Assembly: GCF_003860135.1 (NCBI RefSeq)
Contig: NZ_RQYN01000001.1
Span: 1-64,000, forward strand
Direction of reading: 5' to 3'
Length of the DNA stretch: 64,000 bases
Source: Tannerella forsythia
GTDB taxonomy: Bacteria > Bacteroidota > Bacteroidia > Bacteroidales > Tannerellaceae
Both the position numbers and the translations under genes were made by a program. The notes under the pieces were generated by a model. It did no database searches and was not told the origin of the DNA. It saw nothing but the letters and a program-made list of their open reading frames with translations. This document shows, in pieces, positions 37,206 to 55,924 of the stretch; position 1 is the first letter of the stretch, and each line of letters opens with the position of its first letter.

Positions 37206-37236
37206 TTTGTTTTTTCAAAAGAGTGTCGTATCTTTG
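37206..37236 (+). promoter_or_regulatory. tRNA promoter
   Basis: TTTG at 37206-37209, 19 bp, then TATCTTTG at 37229-37236: a textbook Bacteroidetes promoter. The start near 37243 is 26 nt before the mature tRNA. Confidence 0.75.
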
Positions 37237-43962: not shown

Positions 43963-44350
43963 TTATCCGCTTTTCACGTCCGGGCTCTTTGTTTCACCTG
44001 CGGAATCTGATGCACTCTTGCCGACGATGTTTTTTTGTTTCCGGATTATTCGATGCTTTTGTGATAAGTCTTCAAAATATTCCCGATTTGTCCTGATATC
44101 CAGCCAACCCTTTCTTCCGTCACGGACGATGTGGTAAAACGATCGGGGATGTTGCTTGATTTCATCATACTGTGCTGTGGTGTGACGTGGAAAGATGCCG
44201 ATCTTGCCTTCGTTGTGAAAATAGAACAGTCCGTCTTTGCCGAAAGTAATGGAATCATTGACAAGCGGCAGAACGATTTTCCAAACGATGCTTTTTGAGG
44301 GATATTGTTGCAACGTTATTGAAAAATAGGGGTTATTGGTATATTCCTCT
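43963..44350 (-). pseudogene. 3' remnant of a WG-repeat-like gene cut by the IS element
   Basis: About 128 residues of open frame that continue from inside the insertion sequence. The part outside the IS begins EEYTNNPYFSITLQ and contains WG-repeat-like segments (KIGIFPRHTTAQYDEIK, RDGRKGWLDIRTNREYFEDL). No start codon of its own is outside the IS; the ATG at 44409 belongs to IS sequence. The other flank at 45456-45530 has no long frame, so the 5' part of the gene is gone. It is probably not functional. Confidence 0.7.
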
Positions 44351-45455
44351 GACTTTGTTGCAACGGTAGTAAAGACAGTATTTTTCTTTTCTGTGGTTGC
44401 ACTGTACATTAAGATATTTTGTAAGCTTCGGGCACACCTATCCCGATGAATTTGTTCAATACCATACAGTTGAGTTTTATTTCGGTCGTCTGATCCTCAA
44501 GTGTTCGGGCATTTAATTCTCCTCCGAAAATCGTCTTATACCGGAACATCGCCACTTCGTTGAGACTTTGTCGGTGGTAGCCGTTTTCCTTTTTCCAACG
44601 CTTCGTGCCGTGTTGGTTTATGACTTCCACGGCTCCATTACCCTGAATCAGATAATCGGGCAAAGGTTTCTTTCTGGTACCCTTTTGTATGACTGCATTT
44701 TTCGGAGGCGGAATGATCTGAAGAATATCGCTTCCCAAAAATTCTCTGAATCCGAACTTATCGTATGCCCCATCTGGGATAAATCGATCAATATGAGAGG
44801 TCTTACCTTTGAGCAGTTTAGCCCCTACGGAGGCATCATCCTCATCGTAGCCGGTTAATTCCCCCCAGAGGATTTCCTGTGTGTCCAAATCCATTCAGAG
44901 CTGAAGCTTTTGCCACGTGCGACGTTTCGAATAGCCCTGTTTACGCACTTTCCATTCGCCTTCCCCATACACTTTCAAGCCCGTAGAATCTATCCCCACC
45001 GATAAATTCTCACCCCTTGCCAACCTGTTCCCGATGTCTACAGGAAGGCTCTTCTGACGACGGCAAAGCGTTGTGTAATCCGGAACCGGCAAATGACTTT
45101 TACCCATCAGCATAAATAAACTTTCAAGAAAACCCGTACTCCGGCGTAGTTTCAGCCCATAATTGATTTTCAACAACAGGCAACACTTCAATGATACTGT
45201 CGCAATAAGTTCGTTCGCCCACTCTCTTACCCTTTTGGGAGGCTTCTTCCCACTCATCGAATACCGAATCATGTAGCCATAATGTGATACGACCACGACG
45301 GCATAAACTTCCATTGTATTCTTTCCAATTCCTTATTTTATAGCTATCTTTGTGCGAGGTTGTTGGTAAGGTACTCATACGTATCTACATTTTTAGTTTG
45401 CAAATACAAAAATAGACCAATAACCCTTACTTTTAAATACCGTTGCAACAAAGTC
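44351..45455 (-). mobile_element. decayed IS5-like insertion sequence
   Basis: A 1105-bp element bounded by perfect 18-bp inverted repeats, gactttgttgcaacggta at 44351-44368 and its complement at 45438-45455. It carries one broken transposase on the minus strand. I see no target duplication at the ends. A shared word gggttattggt occurs just outside the left end (about 44327-44340) and, inverted, just inside the right end, so the edges may have been rearranged. It borders the CRISPR locus. Confidence 0.88.
44409..45378 (-). pseudogene. IS5-family DDE transposase, frameshifted and with an internal stop
   Basis: Three pieces make up one transposase. The N-terminal part starts at 45378 (MSTLPTTSHKDSYKIRNWKE); a frameshift near 45190 moves it into the frame CCLLLKINYGLKLR. 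A TGA at 44895-44897 stops that frame, directly followed in the same frame by ATG GAT TTG. DDE features remain: GIDSTGLKVYG (first Asp), RFIPDGAYDKFGF (second Asp) and HRQSLNEVAMFRYK. Frame repair at two places would be needed, so it is inactive unless both were suppressed. Confidence 0.87.
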
Positions 45456-45529: not shown

Positions 45530-45559
45530 AAAAAAAGGACGAGGCAAATGCCCCATCCT
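45530..45559 (-). terminator. tracrRNA intrinsic terminator
   Basis: aggatggggca pairs with tgcctcgtcct (two G-U pairs), followed by seven Ts on the minus strand. Confidence 0.88.
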
Positions 45560-45608
45560 AAATGTTTTCACAACGGAATAATCCTTATTGTGATTTGCTT
45601 CAAATTAG
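45530..45608 (-). ncRNA. predicted tracrRNA
   Basis: On the minus strand actaatttgaagcaaatcaca (45589-45609, one base missing relative to the repeat) is complementary to the 5' part of the crRNA-sense repeat, giving about 13+9 bp with one bulge. Then follow a small nexus-like hairpin ggattattcc (45575-45584) and a strong terminator hairpin with an 11-bp stem and a T7 tract (45530-45559). The TATCTTTG -7 box at 45614-45621 puts the 5' end near 45607, for an RNA of about 78 nt. Confidence 0.85.
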
Positions 45609-45613
45609 TGAGA

Positions 45614-45621
45614 CAAAGATA
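45614..45621 (-). promoter_or_regulatory. tracrRNA -7 box
   Basis: TATCTTTG on the minus strand, identical to the box found in every CRISPR repeat. No clear -33 TTTG is seen; the upstream stretch is very A/T rich. Confidence 0.65.
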
Positions 45622-45643: not shown

Positions 45644-45673
45644 TTTGTTTATGAGAGAAAATTAATATATTTG
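45644..45673 (+). promoter_or_regulatory. cas9 operon promoter
   Basis: TTTG at 45644-45647, 18 bp, then TATATTTG at 45666-45673. Transcription would start near 45680, 20 nt before the cas9 ATG. It is divergent from, and close to, the tracrRNA promoter. Confidence 0.75.
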
Positions 45674-45699: not shown

Positions 45700-48600
45700 A
45701 TGAAAAGGATATTAGGATTAGATTTAGGGACTAATAGTATCGGTTGGGCATTGGTAGACGAGGCGGAAAATAAAGACGAAAGGTCGTCAATTGTTAAGCT
45801 TGGTGTGAGAGTAAATCCTTTAACAGTAGATGAATTGACTAATTTCGAGAAAGGAAAAAGCATTACGACGAATGCGGATAGAACATTCAAGAGAGGCATG
45901 CGGCGTAATCTACAACGCTACAAACTTCGTCGTGAAACTTTAATGGAAGTGTTGAAAGAACACAAATTGATAACAGAGGATACTATACTTTCGGAAAATG
46001 GTAACCGAACAACATTTGAGACATACCGATTAAGGGCAAAGGCGGCAACAGAGAAAATCTCGTTGGAGGAGTTTGCGCGAGTATTGCTGATGATTAACAA
46101 AAAACGTGGTTATAAAAGTAGTCGCAAAGCAAAGGGAACGGAAGAAGGTACGTTGATTGACGGTATGGATATAGCTCGTGAACTTTATAATAACAACCTT
46201 ACGCCTGGTGGGTTATGCTTGCAACTTCTTGATGCAGGTAAGAAATTCTTGCCCGATTTTTATCGCTCTGATTTGCAGAATGAACTTGATAGAATTTGGG
46301 AAAAACAAAAAGAATATTATCCGGAGATTCTTACTGATGTATTAAGAGAAGAGTTGAGAGGGAAAAAGCGTGATGCTGTTTGGGCTATTTGTTACAAATA
46401 TTTCGTATGGAAAGAATCCTATACAGAATGGAACAACGAGGAAGGCAAAACCGAACAACTGGAAAGAGAACATAAGCTGGAAGGTATTTATAGTAAACGG
46501 AAAAGGGATGAAGCGAAAAGAGAGAATCTGCAATGGCGGGTAAATGGTTTGAAGGAAAAATTGTCGTTGGAACAATTGGTTGTTGTTTTGCAAGAAATGA
46601 ATACCCAAATCAATAATTCAAGCGGTTATCTTGGCGCAATCAGTGATAGGAGTAAGGAGTTGTACTTTAATAAACAGACTGTTGGGCAGTATCAAATGGA
46701 AATGCTGGATAAGAATCCCAATGTGAGTTTGCGAAATATGGTGTTCTATCGCCAGGATTATTTGGATGAGTTTAATACGCTTTGGGAAAAACAAACTGTA
46801 TATCATAAAGAACTGACAGAGGAGCTGAAAAAAGAAATCCGTGATATTATCATTTTTTATCAGCGTAGATTGAAGAGTCAGAAAGGATTAATCGGTTTTT
46901 GCGAGTTTGAAAGCCGGCAGATAGAGGTAGAGATAGATGGCAAGAAAAAGATTAAAACTATAGGCAGTAGGGTGATCCCCCGTTCTTCTCCCTTGTTTCA
47001 GGAGTTTAAAATATGGCAGATATTAAACAATATCGAAATAACAGTTGTCGGGAAGAAGAGCAAACGGAGAAAACTGAAAGGCAATTCTCCTGCTCTTTTT
47101 GACAAGCTTGACGACACCGAACAATTGGAACTGAGAGGCAGGCGTAATTTGTATCAAGAAGAAAAAGAATTGCTTGCCCAAGAACTCTTTGTTCGTGATA
47201 AGATGACGAAGTCGGATGTTTTGAAATTATTATTTGATAATCCACAAGAATTGGATTTAAATTTTAAAACGATTGATGGCAACAAGACTGGGTATGCGTT
47301 GTTTCAGGCGTACAGCAAAATGATTGAGATGTCCGGGCATGAACCAATTGACTTCAAACAATCGGCTGAGAAGATTATTGAGCATGTAAAAACGGTTTTT
47401 GCTTTTCTTAATTGGAATACGGACATTCTATGTTTTAACTCGAAGGAGGAATTAGACAGTCAATCTTATTACAAACTCTGGCATTTATTGTATTCTTTTG
47501 AGGGGGACAATACGACAACAGGAAACGGTCGGTTGGTTCAAAAGATGACAGAACTGTATGGCTTTGAGAAAGCATACGCCACTATATTGGCAAATGTTAC
47601 TTTTCAAGATGATTATGGCAGTCTGAGCGCAAAGGCTATTCATAAGATTCTGCCTCATTTAAAAGAAGGTAATCAGTATGATGTGGCTTGTGCGTATGCC
47701 GGATACAGGCATTCAAAATCGTCCTTAACCAAGGAAGAAATAGTAAACAAGGAGTTGAAAGACAGGCTTATGCTTCTTCCCAAGAATAGCTTGCGCAATC
47801 CTGTGGTGGAAAAGATTCTGAACCAGATGGTAAACGTAATCAATACCATTATAGACACTTATGGTAAACCGGATGAGATACGTGTAGAACTTGCCCGTGA
47901 GTTGAAGAAGAATGCCAAAGAGCGTGAAGAGCTGACTAAAGCCATTTCACAAACTACCAAAGCGCATGAGGAATATAAGGCACTTTTACAGAAAGAGTTT
48001 GGTTTGACAAATGTAAGCCGTACTGATATTCTGCGTTATAAGCTTTACAAAGAGTTAGAATCGTGTGGGTATAAAACTCTTTATTCCAATACGTATATTC
48101 CGAGAGAAAAACTGTTTAGTAAAGAATTTGATATTGAACATATCATTCCACAAGCACGGCTTTTCGATGATAGCTTTTCAAATAAAACACTTGAAGCTCG
48201 TAGTGTAAATATTGAAAAAGGGAATAAAACAGCGTATGATTTTGTCAAAGAAAAATATGGTGAAAGCGGATCCGACAATAGTTTAGAACATTATTTAAAT
48301 AATATCGAAGATTTGTTTAAGTGGGGGAAAATATCAAGGAGCAAATACAACAAGCTGAAAATGAATGAGCAGGATATTCCTGACGGTTTTATTGAACGTG
48401 ACCTGCGTAATACGCAATATATTGCGAAAAAGGCTCTGTCTATGTTGAATGAAATTTCTCGTCGTGTGGTTGCTACAAGTGGTTCGGTAACTGACAAGTT
48501 GCGTGAGGATTGGCAGTTGGTTGATTTGATGAAAGAATTGAACTGGGAAAAATATAAGGCATTAGGATTGGTTGAATATTTTGAAGATAGAGACGGAAAG

Positions 48601-50022
48601 CAAATAGGTAGAATCAAGGATTGGACGAAACGGAATGATCATCGTCATCATGCGATGGATGCGTTGACAGTAGCATTTACAAAGGATGTATTCATCCAGT
48701 ATTTTAATAACAAAAATGCTAGTCTGAATCCTAACACAAATGAGTATGCAATAAAGAACAAATATTTTCAAAATGGTAGGGCGATTCCGCCTATGCCCTT
48801 GGGTGAGTTTCGTGCGGAAGCTAAAAAGCACTTGGAAAATACTTTGATTTCGATTAAAGCGAAGAATAAGGTCATTACGGATAATGTTAACAAGACGAAG
48901 AAAAGGGGGGGGGTACACAAAAAAGTACAACAGACACCACGTGGGCAGTTGCATCAGGAAACAATCTATGGCAGTGGCAAACAATATTTGGCAAGGGAAG
49001 AAAAGGTGAATGTTTTGTTTGATATCGGGAAAATTATGACTGTGAGCAAACCTGCTTATAGAGATGCATTGTTGAAACGTTTACATGAAAATGGTAATGA
49101 TCCGAAGAAAGCGTTTACTGGAAAGAATTCACCGGATAAACAGCCCATTTGGTTGGATAAGGAACAAACCAAGAAAGTGCCTGAAAGAGTGAAAACTGTA
49201 ACACTTGAAGCGATTTATACTATACGTAAAGATATTATACCTAAGGGCTCCTCTTCTTATTTGAAAGTTGATGAGGTGATAGATGGAGGTGTACGGAAAA
49301 TACTAACTGACAGATTAAATGAATATGGCAATGATGCAAAAAAAGCATTCTCCAACCTTGATGAGAATCCTATTTGGCTGAATAAAGAGAAAGGTATATC
49401 CATTAAGCGAGTTACGATTTCAGGAATCAGTAATGCGCAGTCATTGCATGTGAAAAAGGATAAGGATGGCAAACCTATATTGGATGAGAATGGTAGAAAT
49501 ATTCCTGTTGATTTTGTTAAGACAGGGAATAATCACCATGTGGCAGTTTATCGTAAGCCAGTTATAAAAAGAGGGCAATGGGCGGTTGATGAGGCTGGCA
49601 ATCCCAAGTATGAATTGGAGGAGGTTGTGGTTAGCTTCTTTGAAGCAGTCACAAGGGCCAATCTTGGTCAACCGATTATTGACAATGATTATAAAACGAG
49701 TGAAGGTTGGCAATTCCTTTTCAGTATGAAACAAAACGAGTATTTTGTTTTTCCAAATGAAAAGACTGGATTTAATCCGAAAGAAATTGATTTGATGGAT
49801 GCAGAGAATTATGGGTTGGTAAGTCCTAATTTGTTTAGGGTGCAGAAATTCTCTCATAAGAATTATGTTTTTAGACACCATTTAGAAACTACGATTAAGG
49901 ATACAAGTTCTATTCTGAGAGGTATTACATGGATAGATTTTCGTAGTTCAAAAGGCTTGGACGCTATTGTTAAAGTTCGTGTTAATCACATCGGCCAAAT
50001 AGTGTCGGTAGGAGAATACTAA
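45700..50022 (+). CDS. cas9: CRISPR-associated endonuclease Cas9, type II-C (large Bacteroides form)
   Basis: A 1440-residue Cas9. RuvC-I is at the N-terminus (RILGLDLGTNSIGWALVDE, D8), followed by an Arg-rich bridge helix (FKRGMRRNLQRYKLRRE). RuvC-II has E730 in IRVELARE, HNH has D811-I-E-H814, and RuvC-III has H984 and D987 in HRHHAMD. All catalytic residues are present. It is larger than most II-C proteins but similar to Bacteroides forms. The C-terminal region contains an internal duplication (about residues 1121-1168 and 1199-1245) and a G9 tract at 48905-48913. Base composition is far more AT-rich than the flanks. Confidence 0.97.
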   Translation: MKRILGLDLGTNSIGWALVDEAENKDERSSIVKLGVRVNPLTVDELTNFEKGKSITTNADRTFKRGMRRNLQRYKLRRETLMEVLKEHKLITEDTILSENGNRTTFETYRLRAKAATEKISLEEFARVLLMINKKRGYKSSRKAKGTEEGTLIDGMDIARELYNNNLTPGGLCLQLLDAGKKFLPDFYRSDLQNELDRIWEKQKEYYPEILTDVLREELRGKKRDAVWAICYKYFVWKESYTEWNNEEGKTEQLEREHKLEGIYSKRKRDEAKRENLQWRVNGLKEKLSLEQLVVVLQEMNTQINNSSGYLGAISDRSKELYFNKQTVGQYQMEMLDKNPNVSLRNMVFYRQDYLDEFNTLWEKQTVYHKELTEELKKEIRDIIIFYQRRLKSQKGLIGFCEFESRQIEVEIDGKKKIKTIGSRVIPRSSPLFQEFKIWQILNNIEITVVGKKSKRRKLKGNSPALFDKLDDTEQLELRGRRNLYQEEKELLAQELFVRDKMTKSDVLKLLFDNPQELDLNFKTIDGNKTGYALFQAYSKMIEMSGHEPIDFKQSAEKIIEHVKTVFAFLNWNTDILCFNSKEELDSQSYYKLWHLLYSFEGDNTTTGNGRLVQKMTELYGFEKAYATILANVTFQDDYGSLSAKAIHKILPHLKEGNQYDVACAYAGYRHSKSSLTKEEIVNKELKDRLMLLPKNSLRNPVVEKILNQMVNVINTIIDTYGKPDEIRVELARELKKNAKEREELTKAISQTTKAHEEYKALLQKEFGLTNVSRTDILRYKLYKELESCGYKTLYSNTYIPREKLFSKEFDIEHIIPQARLFDDSFSNKTLEARSVNIEKGNKTAYDFVKEKYGESGSDNSLEHYLNNIEDLFKWGKISRSKYNKLKMNEQDIPDGFIERDLRNTQYIAKKALSMLNEISRRVVATSGSVTDKLREDWQLVDLMKELNWEKYKALGLVEYFEDRDGKQIGRIKDWTKRNDHRHHAMDALTVAFTKDVFIQYFNNKNASLNPNTNEYAIKNKYFQNGRAIPPMPLGEFRAEAKKHLENTLISIKAKNKVITDNVNKTKKRGGVHKKVQQTPRGQLHQETIYGSGKQYLAREEKVNVLFDIGKIMTVSKPAYRDALLKRLHENGNDPKKAFTGKNSPDKQPIWLDKEQTKKVPERVKTVTLEAIYTIRKDIIPKGSSSYLKVDEVIDGGVRKILTDRLNEYGNDAKKAFSNLDENPIWLNKEKGISIKRVTISGISNAQSLHVKKDKDGKPILDENGRNIPVDFVKTGNNHHVAVYRKPVIKRGQWAVDEAGNPKYELEEVVVSFFEAVTRANLGQPIIDNDYKTSEGWQFLFSMKQNEYFVFPNEKTGFNPKEIDLMDAENYGLVSPNLFRVQKFSHKNYVFRHHLETTIKDTSSILRGITWIDFRSSKGLDAIVKVRVNHIGQIVSVGEY

Positions 50023-50037
50023 TGTGATAAAAGACTT

Positions 50038-50656
50038 ATGAACAACAATAGTACACCAATTTCCTCTGATTTCTTTCTTTACAAAGACAGTAATGGAGAA
50101 GTGAAAGTCGAAATCTATATCTTTAAGGAAAGGGTATGGCTGCCGCAGGACCAGATTGCACAATTGTTCGGTGTGCACAGAAGCGTAGTGACTAAACATT
50201 TAAAGAATGTATATAAAAGAGGAGAGTTGTTGAAAGAAAAAAACTTGTGCAATTTTTGCATAAGTTCAATGAATGATTGAAGAATCCACAAACGCTGTTT
50301 TGTAAGGATTATTTCAAAGAATAATTAGTTCGCATTCGTGACATTCGTAGCAGCGAACGACGCCTCTATCAGAAAATAACAGATATTTATTCACAACGCA
50401 GTGCCGACTATGAAGCGGGTAGCGATGTAACCCAAGAAGTTTTTTTGCAAATAAATTGTATTGGGCAATTTCTGGGAAAACGGTAGCTGAAATTATTGTT
50501 TTTCGTGTGGATGATGGTAAGCCTAATATGGGATTGACTACTTGGAGAGTGCATCTCAACGAAGAGGCCGTGCTACAACATAGTGGGGTGAGCCATGAGA
50601 TGGCCAAAGCATTAGTGGAACAGGAATATGACAAATTTTATGTTGAACAATCTTAG
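50038..50656 (+). pseudogene. broken RhuM-family gene inside the cas operon
   Basis: An 80-residue N-terminal piece (VEIYIFKERVWLPQDQIAQL, FGVHRSVVTKHLKN) ends at TGA 50278-50280. After a deletion the family's later part continues with a nonsense TAA at 50323-50325 (KDYFKE*LVRIRDIRSSERR). A frameshift then occurs at a run of seven Ts (50440-50446), followed by LYWAISGKTVAEIIV and KPNMGLTTWRVHLN. At least three lesions are visible. RhuM proteins are of uncertain function and often lie near restriction or defence genes. It sits between cas9 (15 bp) and cas1. Confidence 0.82.
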
Positions 50657-50699
50657 TGTTATGAATTAAATTTTAACAAAACTTAAAAAGAGATGGGCC

Positions 50700-51632
50700 A
50701 TGATTAAGAAAACACTTTATTTTGGGAATCCGGTTTATCTATCGTTACGAAATGCACAGCTGGTCATCAAGCTGCCCGGTGTGGAAAAAGCAACGGCTTT
50801 GCCGGAAACGTTGAAAAAGCAGGCGGAAGTAACGAAGCCTATAGAGGACATTGGAATCGTTGTGTTGGATAACAAGCAGATAACCATTACTTCTAGTGTG
50901 CTGGAGGCTTTGCTTGAGAATAATTGTTCCGTAATCACTTGTGATAGAGGTGGTATGCCAGTCGGATTAATGCTTCCTCTTTATGGAAATACAACGCAGA
51001 ATGAACGTTTTCGTAAACAATTGGATACGTCGCTTCCTTTGAAGAAACAACTCTGGCAGCAAACTATTCAAGCGAAAATCAACAATCAAGCATCTGTACT
51101 TAAAGATTGTATGAACGAGGAAATAAAGTGTATGCGTGTTTGGGCTACCAATGTGCGTAGTGGCGACCCAGACAATTTGGAAGCGCGTGCTGCTGCATAT
51201 TATTGGAAATCTTTATTCGCTGATGTTGATGGTTTCACTCGGGAGCGTGAAGGAATTCCTCCCAACAATCTATTGAACTATGGATATGCCATTCTTCGTG
51301 CGGTGATGGCGCGTGGACTGGTGATAAGCGGACTGCTTCCTACGTTGGGAATCCATCATCACAATCGCTATAATGCTTATTGTTTAGCGGATGATATAAT
51401 GGAACCTTATCGTCCTTATGTGGATGAATTAGTGTTTAGTTTGGCACAAGAATATGGAAAAAATGCGGAGTTGACGAAAGAGGTAAAAGCCCGATTGCTT
51501 ACTGTTCCGACATTGGAAGTGATAATTGGAGGCAAGCGTAGTCCGTTGATGGTTGCGGTGGGCCGAACTACTGCTTCACTTTATAAATGTTTTAGTGGAG
51601 AGCTTCGGAGAATTGCCTATCCTGAACGATAG
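50700..51632 (+). CDS. cas1: CRISPR integrase Cas1, type II
   Basis: A 310-residue Cas1 with an N-terminal beta domain and helical catalytic domain. A metal-binding Glu is E161 in DPDNLEARAAAYYW, the His is in LGIHHHNRYNAYCLADD, and an acidic residue follows in IMEPYRPYVDE. With Cas2 it inserts new spacers at the leader end of the array. It starts 43 bp after the RhuM remnant and is followed 3 bp later by cas2. Confidence 0.95.
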   Translation: MIKKTLYFGNPVYLSLRNAQLVIKLPGVEKATALPETLKKQAEVTKPIEDIGIVVLDNKQITITSSVLEALLENNCSVITCDRGGMPVGLMLPLYGNTTQNERFRKQLDTSLPLKKQLWQQTIQAKINNQASVLKDCMNEEIKCMRVWATNVRSGDPDNLEARAAAYYWKSLFADVDGFTREREGIPPNNLLNYGYAILRAVMARGLVISGLLPTLGIHHHNRYNAYCLADDIMEPYRPYVDELVFSLAQEYGKNAELTKEVKARLLTVPTLEVIIGGKRSPLMVAVGRTTASLYKCFSGELRRIAYPER

Positions 51633-51968
<336 letters not shown>

Positions 51969-51972
51969 AAAA

Positions 51973-52000
51973 CAAAATCTCGCATTAATGCGAGATTTTG
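51973..52000. terminator. perfect 28-bp palindrome, probable bidirectional terminator
   Basis: caaaatctcgcatt is immediately followed by its exact complement. The hairpin has A/T runs at both sides, so it could stop cas2 transcription from the left and array transcription coming from the right. Confidence 0.7.
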
Positions 52001-52077
52001 TACTAGGAACGCCCGTCTTTTTCTTTTTTCTGAAATACTTTTTAATTCATTGAAAAACATTTCGTTATTTAAAATGT
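52001..52077. promoter_or_regulatory. CRISPR leader (cas2-proximal end of the array)
   Basis: 77 bp of AT-rich sequence between the palindrome and the first repeat. It is at the end where repeats are identical, and the diverged repeats are at the far end, so new spacers are likely added here. Confidence 0.6.
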
Positions 52078-55000
52078 GCTGTTTCCAATGGTTCAAAGAT
52101 ACTAATTTGAAAGCAAATCACAACCCGACGCTTTTACTCCTTCTTCTCTAAGGCTGTTTCCAATGGTTCAAAGATACTAATTTGAAAGCAAATCACAACT
52201 GCTTCCTGCGACACCTGATAGGCGTCGTTGCTGTTTCCAATGGTTCAAAGATACTAATTTGAAAGCAAATCACAACTGTTGACATATTCTTTCGTCGATA
52301 CACCTGCTGTTTCCAATGGTTCAAAGATACTAATTTGAAAGCAAATCACAACATCAGTCGAGCTTATCAAGAGCATTAGCTGCTGTTTCCAATGGTTCAA
52401 AGATACTAATTTGAAAGCAAATCACAACAAAAGAACATTGACTTTGCAGCGTATGTAGCTGTTTCCAATGGTTCAAAGATACTAATTTGAAAGCAAATCA
52501 CAACCGTCGAACGCTTGTACACGAAATCCGCCGGCTGTTTCCAATGGTTCAAAGATACTAATTTGAAAGCAAATCACAACCGGCACTTTGTGCATAATTT
52601 CGCGCCACGTGCTGTTTCCAATGGTTCAAAGATACTAATTTGAAAGCAAATCACAACACCCTGTTCGTTTTTACTTCAATCTTAAACGCTGTTTCCAATG
52701 GTTCAAAGATACTAATTTGAAAGCAAATCACAACATGCCTCTGGCAAGTGTAATAAACTCTTCGGCTGTTTCCAATGGTTCAAAGATACTAATTTGAAAG
52801 CAAATCACAACATCATCGATATACACGTGCGCATACACCTGCTGTTTCCAATGGTTCAAAGATACTAATTTGAAAGCAAATCACAACTTGATTTCTCTAC
52901 AGGTTTCTTCTGTAATGCTGTTTCCAATGGTTCAAAGATACTAATTTGAAAGCAAATCACAACCGGTCGGCTTTGCGGCCTGCCTGCGACGTGGCTGTTT
53001 CCAATGGTTCAAAGATACTAATTTGAAAGCAAATCACAACCTCAGTCCGCATATTCATGTATAATAGATGCTGTTTCCAATGGTTCAAAGATACTAATTT
53101 GAAAGCAAATCACAACTATTGCTCTCATTACAATCCGCAAAACGAAGCTGTTTCCAATGGTTCAAAGATACTAATTTGAAAGCAAATCACAACACGTGAC
53201 CATGTGGCCCTCCAGCCGGGGGAGCTGTTTCCAATGGTTCAAAGATACTAATTTGAAAGCAAATCACAACGAAAAGGGGTGTATCCAAAACATGAGAAAG
53301 CTGTTTCCAATGGTTCAAAGATACTAATTTGAAAGCAAATCACAACTCAGGTTTATTTTATCCGCACTGATCGTCGCTGTTTCCAATGGTTCAAAGATAC
53401 TAATTTGAAAGCAAATCACAACTATTTCATATTTCCGGTCTAAATGGGGGCTGTTTCCAATGGTTCAAAGATACTAATTTGAAAGCAAATCACAACATCC
53501 TTCACAGCCGCCTTGATAAACATGCTGCTGTTTCCAATGGTTCAAAGATACTAATTTGAAAGCAAATCACAACTTCTTCGCCGTCGGCGCACGGCAGTCG
53601 CCGGCTGTTTCCAATGGTTCAAAGATACTAATTTGAAAGCAAATCACAACTTCGCCGTACCAGAAGACCGATACCCACGTGCTGTTTCCAATGGTTCAAA
53701 GATACTAATTTGAAAGCAAATCACAACACCGACGGAGTTTCCTATTATTTCCACGAGCTGTTTCCAATGGTTCAAAGATACTAATTTGAAAGCAAATCAC
53801 AACTGTAGCCCCCGAAGAAATCGGTCGCATAGCGCTGTTTCCAATGGTTCAAAGATACTAATTTGAAAGCAAATCACAACTGGATAGTTTTACTATATTT
53901 GTAGCATAAGCTGTTTCCAATGGTTCAAAGATACTAATTTGAAAGCAAATCACAACCACGCTTTTGTCGCGAGCTTGTCTCCGATGCTGTTTCCAATGGT
54001 TCAAAGATACTAATTTGAAAGCAAATCACAACTGACCTCAACTCCATCGCTCGTCGAATGAAGCTGTTTCCAATGGTTCAAAGATACTAATTTGAAAGCA
54101 AATCACAACTGCACGCCTGCGGCATAAGCAGACATTTTTGCTGTTTCCAATGGTTCAAAGATACTAATTTGAAAGCAAATCACAACTTCAGCATCTCGGC
54201 TTCCTTTTCCGTCGTGCTGTTTCCAATGGTTCAAAGATACTAATTTGAAAGCAAATCACAACGGAATGCAGGATGTACTCATCTCGTTCTCAGCTGTTTC
54301 CAATGGTTTAAAGATACTAATTTGAAAGCAAATCACAACAACTCCGGGAAAGACAATTCGGAATGGTATGCTGTTTCCAATGGTTCAAAGATACTAATTT
54401 GAAAGCAAATCACAACCCCTTTTCGATTGCTTCTATACCCAGCCCGGCTGTTTCCAATGGTTCAAAGATACTAATTTGAAAGCAAATCACAACTAGACAC
54501 CTTAGCCGGATAGGGAGTCCGGAGCTGTTTCCAATGGTTCAAAGATACTAATTTGAAAGCAAATCACAACTTAGCTTCCAAAGATAACTGTGCTTTATCG
54601 CTGTTTCCAATGGTTCAAAGATACTAATTTGAAAGCAAATCACAACCGCAAACGTCATGCTCGCGATCGGCTTTTCGCTGTTTCCAATGGTTCAAAGATA
54701 CTAATTTGAAAGCAAATCACAACCTCTGCGCTTGTAGGATCGCAGGCTCTCGCGCTGTTTCCAATGGTTCAAAGATACTAATTTGAAAGCAAATCACAAC
54801 GCCTTCCGGTATCCGGATCGACGGCGATCGGCTGTTTCCAATGGTTCAAAGATACTAATTTGAAAGCAAATCACAACCTTGCTAAATTCAACTGTTTTCC
54901 ACCCTTAGCTGTTTCCAATGGTTTAAAGATACTAATTTGAAAGCAAATCACAACAGCAGTGCTTTATCAAGCCGTTTATACAAGCTGTTTCCAATGGTTC

Positions 55001-55173
55001 AAAGATACTAATTTGAAAGCAAATCACAACGAAACTCGCACACGCTTTCGATAACGTGCGGCTGTTTCCAATGGTTCAAAGATACTAATTTGAAAGCAAA
55101 TCACAACTAACATATGCTACATAGTCGATTGATTTTGCTGTTTCCAATGGCTCAAAGATACTAATTTGAAAGC
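52078..55173 (-). CRISPR. type II-C CRISPR array, 41 repeats of 47 bp, 40 spacers
   Basis: Plus-strand repeats begin gctgtttccaatggttcaaag and end gcaaatcacaac. The starts run from 52078 to 55137 with a 74-77 bp period, so spacers are mostly 27-30 nt. Repeats 30 (54293) and 38 (54908) have ggttt instead of ggttc; the last (55137-55173) has ggctc and is cut to 37 bp. The tracrRNA anti-repeat shows that crRNAs are read from the minus strand. In that sense each repeat contains GTTG, 19 bp, TATCTTTG, a Bacteroidetes-like promoter. Spacer targets were not searched. Confidence 0.98.
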
Positions 55174-55201
55174 GTTACCCTTACATCGTTTTGTCCGGGC
55201 G

Positions 55202-55233
55202 TTTGCGGGATACCGTTAAATACCGTATCTTTG
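55202..55233 (+). promoter_or_regulatory. promoter of the 55262 gene
   Basis: TTTG at 55202-55205, 20 bp, then TATCTTTG at 55226-55233. The start near 55240 is 22 nt before the ATG. Confidence 0.72.
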
Positions 55234-55261: not shown

Positions 55262-55924
55262 ATGACGGAACGAAGAAGAACGAAATACGATACGACATTT
55301 TTTGAGCGGTATGCCCGCCAATCGCTGATCGACTTGGTGGACGACCGCTTCGAGGCATTAAAGAATTACGACCGCCCGGATTTGCAGGACGAAGTACGTA
55401 GCATCGGCATCGAGGTGACACGAGCCATCCGCGAAGACCGTGACGTGGCGCACGCGCTGATCAACGAAATAGCCGGACGTCCGGTGATGAAGGTCTCGGA
55501 AGAAGACTGGATGGACATGACGAAATACGGGTACGGATACGGCATCGACGATACGATTATCGGGCGAATGGAATACGAATATTGGGCGGCGGCTCTGCCT
55601 TTGCAGCGCATCATCAGGAGTAAGGTGCGTAAGGTAGCCGACGGATTCTACGGTCATTTCCGAAAGTTCGGACTGTATATCTTTTCGAAAGAAAATCTGA
55701 CAGACGATACGGTTTTCTCGACCATGGAATACACGAGGCAACTGCAAGAAGGAAATGCGCTGAAATACGATGTGATGTATATCTCGCAAATCCACGAACT
55801 TTTCGTTTGCGATTTGACCCAAGCCTCGTTCGACGAAATTCCCATCAGCCGTGCTCAATGCCGCAGATTTTACAATGAGGCGCTTCGTCCGGAGGGTGAC
55901 ATAACGAAACATGAAAACCATTAA
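55262..55924 (+). CDS. uncharacterised 220-residue cytoplasmic protein
   Basis: I do not recognise a family. The protein is charged, mostly helical by eye, with no signal peptide or membrane segment, and has a Tyr/Gly patch (MTKYGYGYGIDD). GC content and codon use match the chromosome, not the AT-rich cas genes, so it is probably not part of the CRISPR system although it starts 88 bp after the array. It has a strong own promoter and is followed 12 bp later by the HAD-hotdog fusion, so the two are likely co-transcribed. Confidence 0.75.
   Translation: MTERRRTKYDTTFFERYARQSLIDLVDDRFEALKNYDRPDLQDEVRSIGIEVTRAIREDRDVAHALINEIAGRPVMKVSEEDWMDMTKYGYGYGIDDTIIGRMEYEYWAAALPLQRIIRSKVRKVADGFYGHFRKFGLYIFSKENLTDDTVFSTMEYTRQLQEGNALKYDVMYISQIHELFVCDLTQASFDEIPISRAQCRRFYNEALRPEGDITKHENH

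Follow-up and report, generated by a model that had tools for sequence, protein, structure and literature searches.

The CRISPR locus of Tannerella forsythia studied here raises a simple question: does transcription of its array begin at a promoter outside the array or inside the repeats themselves? We analyzed a window of 64,000 nucleotides (contig NZ_RQYN01000001.1, positions 1 to 64,000), for which a sequence-only reading had claimed that every CRISPR repeat contains a complete Bacteroidetes promoter. The sigma motif in question consists of TTTG at -33 and TAnnTTTG at -7 (PMC9723704, PMC7366714). According to the text available of the latter paper, such a motif is found at 81% of primary start sites in Bacteroides thetaiotaomicron, whose strain VPI-5482 has no annotated CRISPR.

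The array and its surroundings

PADLOC matches among four scanned proteins identified cas9, cas1 and cas2 as the only cas genes, the composition of type II-C (Table 1). A tracrRNA with an anti-repeat is predicted upstream of cas9. In the window, the anti-repeat extends only to the first T of the box in the repeat, so that one base is common to both. Before the -7 box of the tracrRNA promoter itself, no TTG was found at a gap of 18 to 21 nt. The sole further family match among the four proteins was an 80-amino-acid frame in the interval between cas9 and cas1 (50038-50280), which matched the PDC-S05 and PDC-S23 models of PADLOC and is presumably RhuM-like. Judged by eye, positions 50038-50680 hold this frame followed by an apparent decayed remainder of its gene, and positions 43963-45314, upstream of the tracrRNA, hold transposase-like and apparently broken open frames.

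The array had earlier been placed at 52078-55173; its start stands, and its end moves to 55183. The crRNA sense is the minus strand, on which Rfam family RF01362 also places the repeat. The spacers measure 30 nt (22 spacers), 29 nt (16), 28 nt (one) and 27 nt (one). Read in the crRNA sense, the described arrangement of GTTG at positions 1 to 4, a 19-bp gap and TATCTTTG at positions 24 to 31 recurs exactly in 38 of the 41 repeats. The claim that every repeat is a complete promoter was thus too broad: the box alone is present in 39 repeats, two carry TATCTTTA instead, and the 5'-most repeat lacks GTTG and has no TTG at a gap of 18 to 21 nt. Altogether, 40 of the 41 repeats lie within one base of TTG-N19-TAnnTTTG. 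The same spacing had also been ascribed to the tRNA promoter and several gene promoters of the window; it is found before tRNA-Met, whereas cas9 has N18 and the divergent open frame N20. TTG-N19-TAnnTTTG matched the window 41 times, 38 of them inside the array, against 0.71 expected in shuffles. Since these 38 matches are copies of one sequence, the real test lies across relatives.

Table 1. Coordinates of the array, cas genes, RNAs and promoter elements in the window
Feature	Position	Strand	Remarks
tRNA-Met promoter	37206-37236		N19 spacing, as in the repeats
Predicted tracrRNA with terminator hairpin	45530..45609	-	Upstream of cas9
tracrRNA anti-repeat	45588..45609	-	Matches repeat positions 2-24
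tracrRNA -7 box	45614..45621	-	TATCTTTG; predicted start at the first anti-repeat base
cas9 promoter	45644..45673	+	TTTG-N18-TATATTTG
cas9	45700..50022	+	1440 aa
cas1, type II	50700..51632	+
cas2, type II	51636..51968	+
Perfect hairpin	51972..52001	.	13 bp; interval between cas2 and array
CRISPR array	52078..55183	-	41 repeats of 47 nt, 40 spacers
cas2-proximal repeat (example)	52078..52124	-	GTTG 52121-52124 as -33; TATCTTTG 52094-52101 as -7
Predicted start in the cas2-proximal repeat	52089	-	Repeat position 36, with the box at -12 to -5 (following the available text of PMC9723704)
Variant repeat	54293..54339	-	G31A; box TATCTTTA
Variant repeat	54908..54954	-	G31A; box TATCTTTA
5'-most repeat	55137..55183	-	9 mismatches, 8 within positions 1-10; TATCTTTG box 55153-55160 intact
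Promoter of the divergent open frame 55262-55924	55202..55233	+	TTTG-N20-TATCTTTG

The TAnnTTTG box among relatives

Relatives were drawn from 394 genomes of the phylum, 396 of the class and 295 of the order, and 140 regions around cas1 were taken; cas1 places near contig edges were left out by eye. Together with the window these made a first set of 141 regions. No array was detected in 22 of them, and 3 of the remaining 119 could not be oriented (L090, L092 and L127), leaving 116. The cas1 match behind L090 scored below the cut-off of the family. L127, in a Bacteroidota assembly with 3% contamination, has a repeat of proteobacterial appearance, with TACAAT close to the end, and is probably a foreign contig. 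A second, named set comprised 80 loci from Bacteroides, Phocaeicola, Parabacteroides, Prevotella, Alistipes and kin; 17 had no array, and the other 63 contributed 61 distinct repeats, one array locus being titled Eubacteriales. The two sets share four repeats and at least one genome, which leaves the counts of distinct repeats unaffected. The crRNA sense was opposite to cas1 in 59 of the 63 named loci; in L226, L239, L242 and L248 it lay on the cas1 strand.

By length, the repeats of these relatives form two classes, one of 44-49 nt and one of 36 nt. The first set contained 76 distinct long repeats, of which 36 had a perfect TAnnTTTG after position 17, compared with 2.65 ± 1.63 (3.5%) in dinucleotide shuffles of the same repeats (maximum 10 in 1000 shuffles). 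The perfect box occurred in 0 of the 76 on the reverse strand and in 3 when they were read backwards, and TAnnTTTG was their most frequent 2+4 motif. In the named set, 53 of 61 distinct repeats had a perfect box, 6 had one mismatch and 2 had two. Both sets combined gave 133 distinct long repeats, 85 perfect, 39 with one mismatch (including L116, with TATCTTCG) and 9 with two. In 79 of the 85, the TTG at repeat positions 2 to 4 stands 18 to 21 nt before the box, most often 19. The prediction that other Bacteroidetes II-C repeats carry the same box and spacing was therefore borne out for the long class. The match at -33 is not independent, however: the crRNA handle fixes GTTG, which is also present in boxless repeats. 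The bases ahead of TTTG in perfect boxes vary (TATC, TACC, TAAC, TATT, TACT and others). By kinship, a perfect box was found in 18 of 21 long-repeat loci of the window's order, counting the window itself, 16 of 45 of other orders of the class and 3 of 11 of other classes. Plasmid arrays carry it as well, with TATCTTTG in Phocaeicola massiliensis and TACCTTTC in Persicobacter.

Repeats from outside this group served as controls. None of 15 distinct non-type-II Bacteroidota repeats had a perfect box on either strand, although at 29-36 nt they offer fewer possible box places. No perfect box was found in five type II repeats of other phyla (Azospirillum, Pigmentibacter, Ilyobacter, Tistrella and Limnohabitans), a small outgroup taken from six plasmid loci, one without a detected array. 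The Azospirillum and Ilyobacter repeats end in TACAAT, which resembles a sigma-70 -10 element.

As a yardstick for promoter structure, we used the tracrRNA promoters. Of 179 loci, 151 contained a conserved tracrRNA core, and a perfect box lay upstream of it in 96. Among 93 unique tracrRNA promoters, 61 have TTG at a gap of 18 to 21 nt from the box; it occurred 62 times at these gaps, against 7.6 ± 2.7 in shuffles (maximum 19 in 500 shuffles), with a peak at 19 and 20. The sigma-ABfr arrangement, TAnnTTTG with TTG or TTTG about 18 to 21 nt upstream, is likewise found in the repeats of the window and its relatives. Moreover, the boxes of repeat and tracrRNA agree in 96 of 127 loci (69 with both perfect, 27 with neither; 15 and 16 mixed; p = 8e-7, a value from which kinship was not removed and to which it may add). 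Five nucleotides after the box, A following a pyrimidine is preferred in repeats and tracrRNA promoters (0.60 and 0.62). This is a weak indication, as positions +8 to +11 of the repeats are equally biased and the preference for A is not unique.

The 36-nt class gave a different result. Among its 39 loci, 4 had a perfect box, 10 had one mismatch and 25 had fewer than five of the six specified bases, 4 of the 25 belonging to the window's own order. Perfect boxes were seen in 0 of 4 loci of the same order, 0 of 17 of other orders of the class and 4 of 18 of other classes. The expectation that Bacteroidetes II-C repeats in general share the arrangement thus failed for 25 of the 39 36-nt loci and held for the 44-49-nt class. 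Since most 36-nt repeats lack the box, we regard it as a feature of the 44-49-nt class, above all in Bacteroidales, and not of all Bacteroidetes II-C repeats. Where 36-nt repeats accompany a tracrRNA core (24 loci), the tracrRNA box matched at least five of six bases in 23 and was perfect in 11. Repeats of 36 nt ending in GATATT or TAGATT, with no TAnnTTTG, were noted in L048, L054, L057, L064, L070-L072, L074, L076, L079, L081-L084, L086, L087, L095 and L105. A half-box completed at the repeat-spacer junction (TTTG at 8-11, N19, TAnnTT at 31-36) was considered for the 36-nt repeats and rejected: spacer starts show no excess of the missing TG, which begins 6.7% of 652 spacers in 36-nt arrays and 6.3% of 2798 in long arrays. 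An external promoter replacing the absent box found no support either, an upstream box with TTG being present in 2 of 22 short-repeat and 1 of 6 long-repeat boxless arrays.

Constraint on the box and its interpretation

Many Bacteroidales repeats are alike over their whole length, and TATCTTTG might be shared by ancestry alone, not yet having diverged among close relatives. We compared disjoint sister pairs of repeats, a design that controls for time, taking the box position from one partner only and applying cut-offs of 8, 12 and 16 differences. Column conservation in a MAFFT alignment had been dropped, as almost no gaps were set and shifted boxes fell out of register. In 47 pairs with at most 12 differences, 10 of 282 specified bases had changed (3.5%), compared with 115 of 441 in the tail (26%; Fisher p = 2.5e-17), 48 of 303 in the stretch before the box (16%), 35 of 799 in the handle and 10 of 94 at the two free positions of the box. 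The corresponding counts for specified bases and tail were 4/216 and 74/356 at cut-off 8 and 25/342 and 165/535 at cut-off 16. Depending on the cut-off, changes at the six specified bases are 4 to 11 times rarer than in the adjoining tail; against the free bases, p was 0.11, 0.014 and 0.0031 at cut-offs 8, 12 and 16. The box evolves about as slowly as the tracrRNA-pairing handle, although it takes almost no part in the pairing. These rates, together with perfect boxes at start positions 23 to 27, leave ancestry alone with next to no probability as an explanation. Degenerate terminal repeats, in which the handle is lost, keep the box in 37 of 39 cases. We rejected them as proof of promoter selection: the sequence after the box is kept nearly as well (7/234 in the box, 32/607 after it, p = 0.20), and edge decay also explains the pattern, because the array detector accepts mismatches up to 42% only.

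A second alternative is that Cas1-Cas2 uses the box as a recognition site or ruler when it integrates spacers, the likeness to a sigma motif being coincidental. Such an element would be included in every duplicated repeat, as the box is, and among the first set's 36 long repeats with an exact match it starts at position 23 or 24 in 27 and ends 16 or 17 nt before the repeat end in 29. Its register drifts nonetheless, with starts at 23 to 27 in 34 repeats and at 31-32 in two, and 7 to 17 nt to the end. Variation is greater at the two positions that the sigma motif leaves free than at the six it specifies, many boxless 36-nt repeats adjoin a cas1 of the same family, and tracrRNA promoters, which are not integration sites, share both box and spacing; we consider an integration element highly unlikely. 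The alternative of one long precursor from a promoter outside the array, with the box an inherited relic of little activity, draws on the transcription usual in type II-A arrays (PMC12080349) and assumed for B. fragilis (PMC5704556), in the text available of both. In its favor, the few variant repeats within long arrays gave no clear sign that the box is spared (27 repeats; changes in 3/162 box, 6/343 far-handle and 14/271 tail bases; box versus tail p = 0.12), and the 250 nt preceding the array include a perfect box in 20 of 88 long-repeat cases. However, only 4 of the 88 combine that box with TTG at the right gap. In the window, the upstream flank is the start of the divergent open frame, and its minus strand, from the terminal repeat to about 56175 (some 1 kb), contained no other site of at least 5 bits. 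Nor does a relic account for the difference in rate between box and tail, and we judge this explanation very improbable.

The comparison lends good support to the predicted promoter of Bacteroidetes type within the repeat, through the frequency of the perfect box in long repeats, the tracrRNA-like spacing, the slow specified bases and the two control groups. Very probably, then, the Bacteroidetes primary sigma factor, sigma-ABfr, uses each 47-nt repeat as a promoter, with a start near position 36. The TTG of the crRNA handle (positions 2 to 4) would act as the -33 element, and TATCTTTG, located where the tracrRNA-pairing segment ends, as the -7 element. RNA polymerase would initiate near position 36 and produce a primary RNA made up of some 12 nt of repeat, a single spacer and the following repeat, the first 24 nt of which would pair with tracrRNA. 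Transcription would follow the minus strand in the direction of the cas2 end, at which new spacers are expected to be added, and would probably stop at the hairpin between cas2 and the array, a likely terminator. A perfect stem of at least 8 was found on the cas2 side of the array in 104 of 174 loci and on the opposite flank in 16 of 125. Because a repeat promoter would read toward the entry end, a newly inserted spacer and its duplicated repeat would be expressed at once. For T. forsythia, we infer sigma binding, the start site, RNA ends, termination and the direction of spacer entry from these sequence features.

A broader proposal is possible, and we put it forward tentatively, with slightly more doubt than confidence. 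In Bacteroidales and many relatives, the II-C repeat may have been rewritten for the host sigma factor, with the handle as -33 and the -7 element at the end of the pairing segment instead of the proteobacterial -10 place. Repeats and tracrRNA promoters would follow the host promoter code together, and array expression would be tied to the phylum, limiting transfer between phyla; solitary viral copies could be decoys or borrowed promoters. Solitary copies of Bacteroidota II-C repeats were observed on viral contigs (L307 2230-2260, L309 2307-2335, L310 2614-2642, L312 1029-1059 and L315 39-70), three of them 83-106 kb long, with no array in the stretches examined around the copies. In L307, an apparent terminator hairpin directly follows the repeat, judged by eye. 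These copies came from searches that required the box; a search with the handle only gave at least 75 single-match loci, mostly chance-like, and 7 among the matches listed had a perfect box. We regard the viral copies as candidate repeat-mimicking anti-CRISPR RNAs or borrowed promoters. For the former, the comparison is PMC10651486, in the available text of which the term II-C does not appear.

A promoter in the repeat would allow each stored spacer to be switched on wherever it is placed in the array. The 5' ends of crRNAs can then be predicted for Bacteroides, Phocaeicola, Parabacteroides, Prevotella and Alistipes arrays, and shortening or swapping such repeats would delete the promoter unnoticed. 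Whether CRISPR arrays are bound to their hosts through the promoter code in their repeats also becomes testable.

Comparison with known systems

In the Neisseria and Campylobacter form of the type II-C array, a sigma-70 -10 hexamer stands at the 3' end of a 36-nt repeat and transcription starts in the spacer. The window repeat instead has TAnnTTTG at positions 24-31 of 47 nt, a predicted start inside the repeat and no sigma-70 arrangement, and this different box position fits the separate invention proposed in the sequence-only reading, although that proposal went too far and the layout may also have come from remodelling of an older repeat promoter. What the locus would have in common with Campylobacter jejuni and Neisseria meningitidis is a promoter per repeat, transcription toward the newest spacer, and the use of tracrRNA and Cas9. 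In the reports as available, II-C systems generally have one promoter per repeat and take up spacers via the last repeat, with C. jejuni as the model (PMC12080349); in arrays elsewhere, transcription starts at repeat promoters and heads for the newest spacer (PMC12080349, PMC8092290), and repeat promoters are described in N. meningitidis (PMC5006608).

A repeat-borne promoter had already been proposed in Bacteroidetes for two Flavobacterium species, although in the available text of both reports the -7 box in the repeat is unnamed. In F. columnare, a TTG 33 bp upstream of each spacer was proposed as promoter, and eight reads run toward the leader (PMC8092290). The same TTG was applied to F. 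psychrophilum CN46, where both array parts are transcribed and TAnnTTTG was used for cas9 only (PMC10309648). These proposals rely on TTG alone, 33 or 35 bp before the spacer; the window repeats add TAnnTTTG and so supply the missing -7 element for a promoter previously guessed from TTG alone. What is known is therefore the II-C repeat promoter elsewhere and the Flavobacterium TTG, and what appears to be new is the -7 box in the repeat. We did not find TAnnTTTG named inside CRISPR repeats in the literature searched directly, in the text available and with subscription papers and preprints outside the scope. Two printed 47-nt repeats of Prevotella intermedia CRISPR-I hold CAAAGATA, which is TATCTTTG on the other strand, unremarked in the available text of that paper; unlike our reading, it expected a leader promoter and had no strong promoter prediction for anti-repeats (PMC5608340). 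For R. anatipestifer II-C repeats, the available text reports no potential promoters, leaders having been screened with the fruitfly.org predictor (PMC5006608). The published claim of a promoterless Bacteroidetes II-C repeat deserves a second look. Finally, the window repeats share both elements and their spacing with ordinary sigma-ABfr promoters of Bacteroides, and differ from them in sitting within a repeated element of immune memory, where the -33 element doubles as the crRNA handle.
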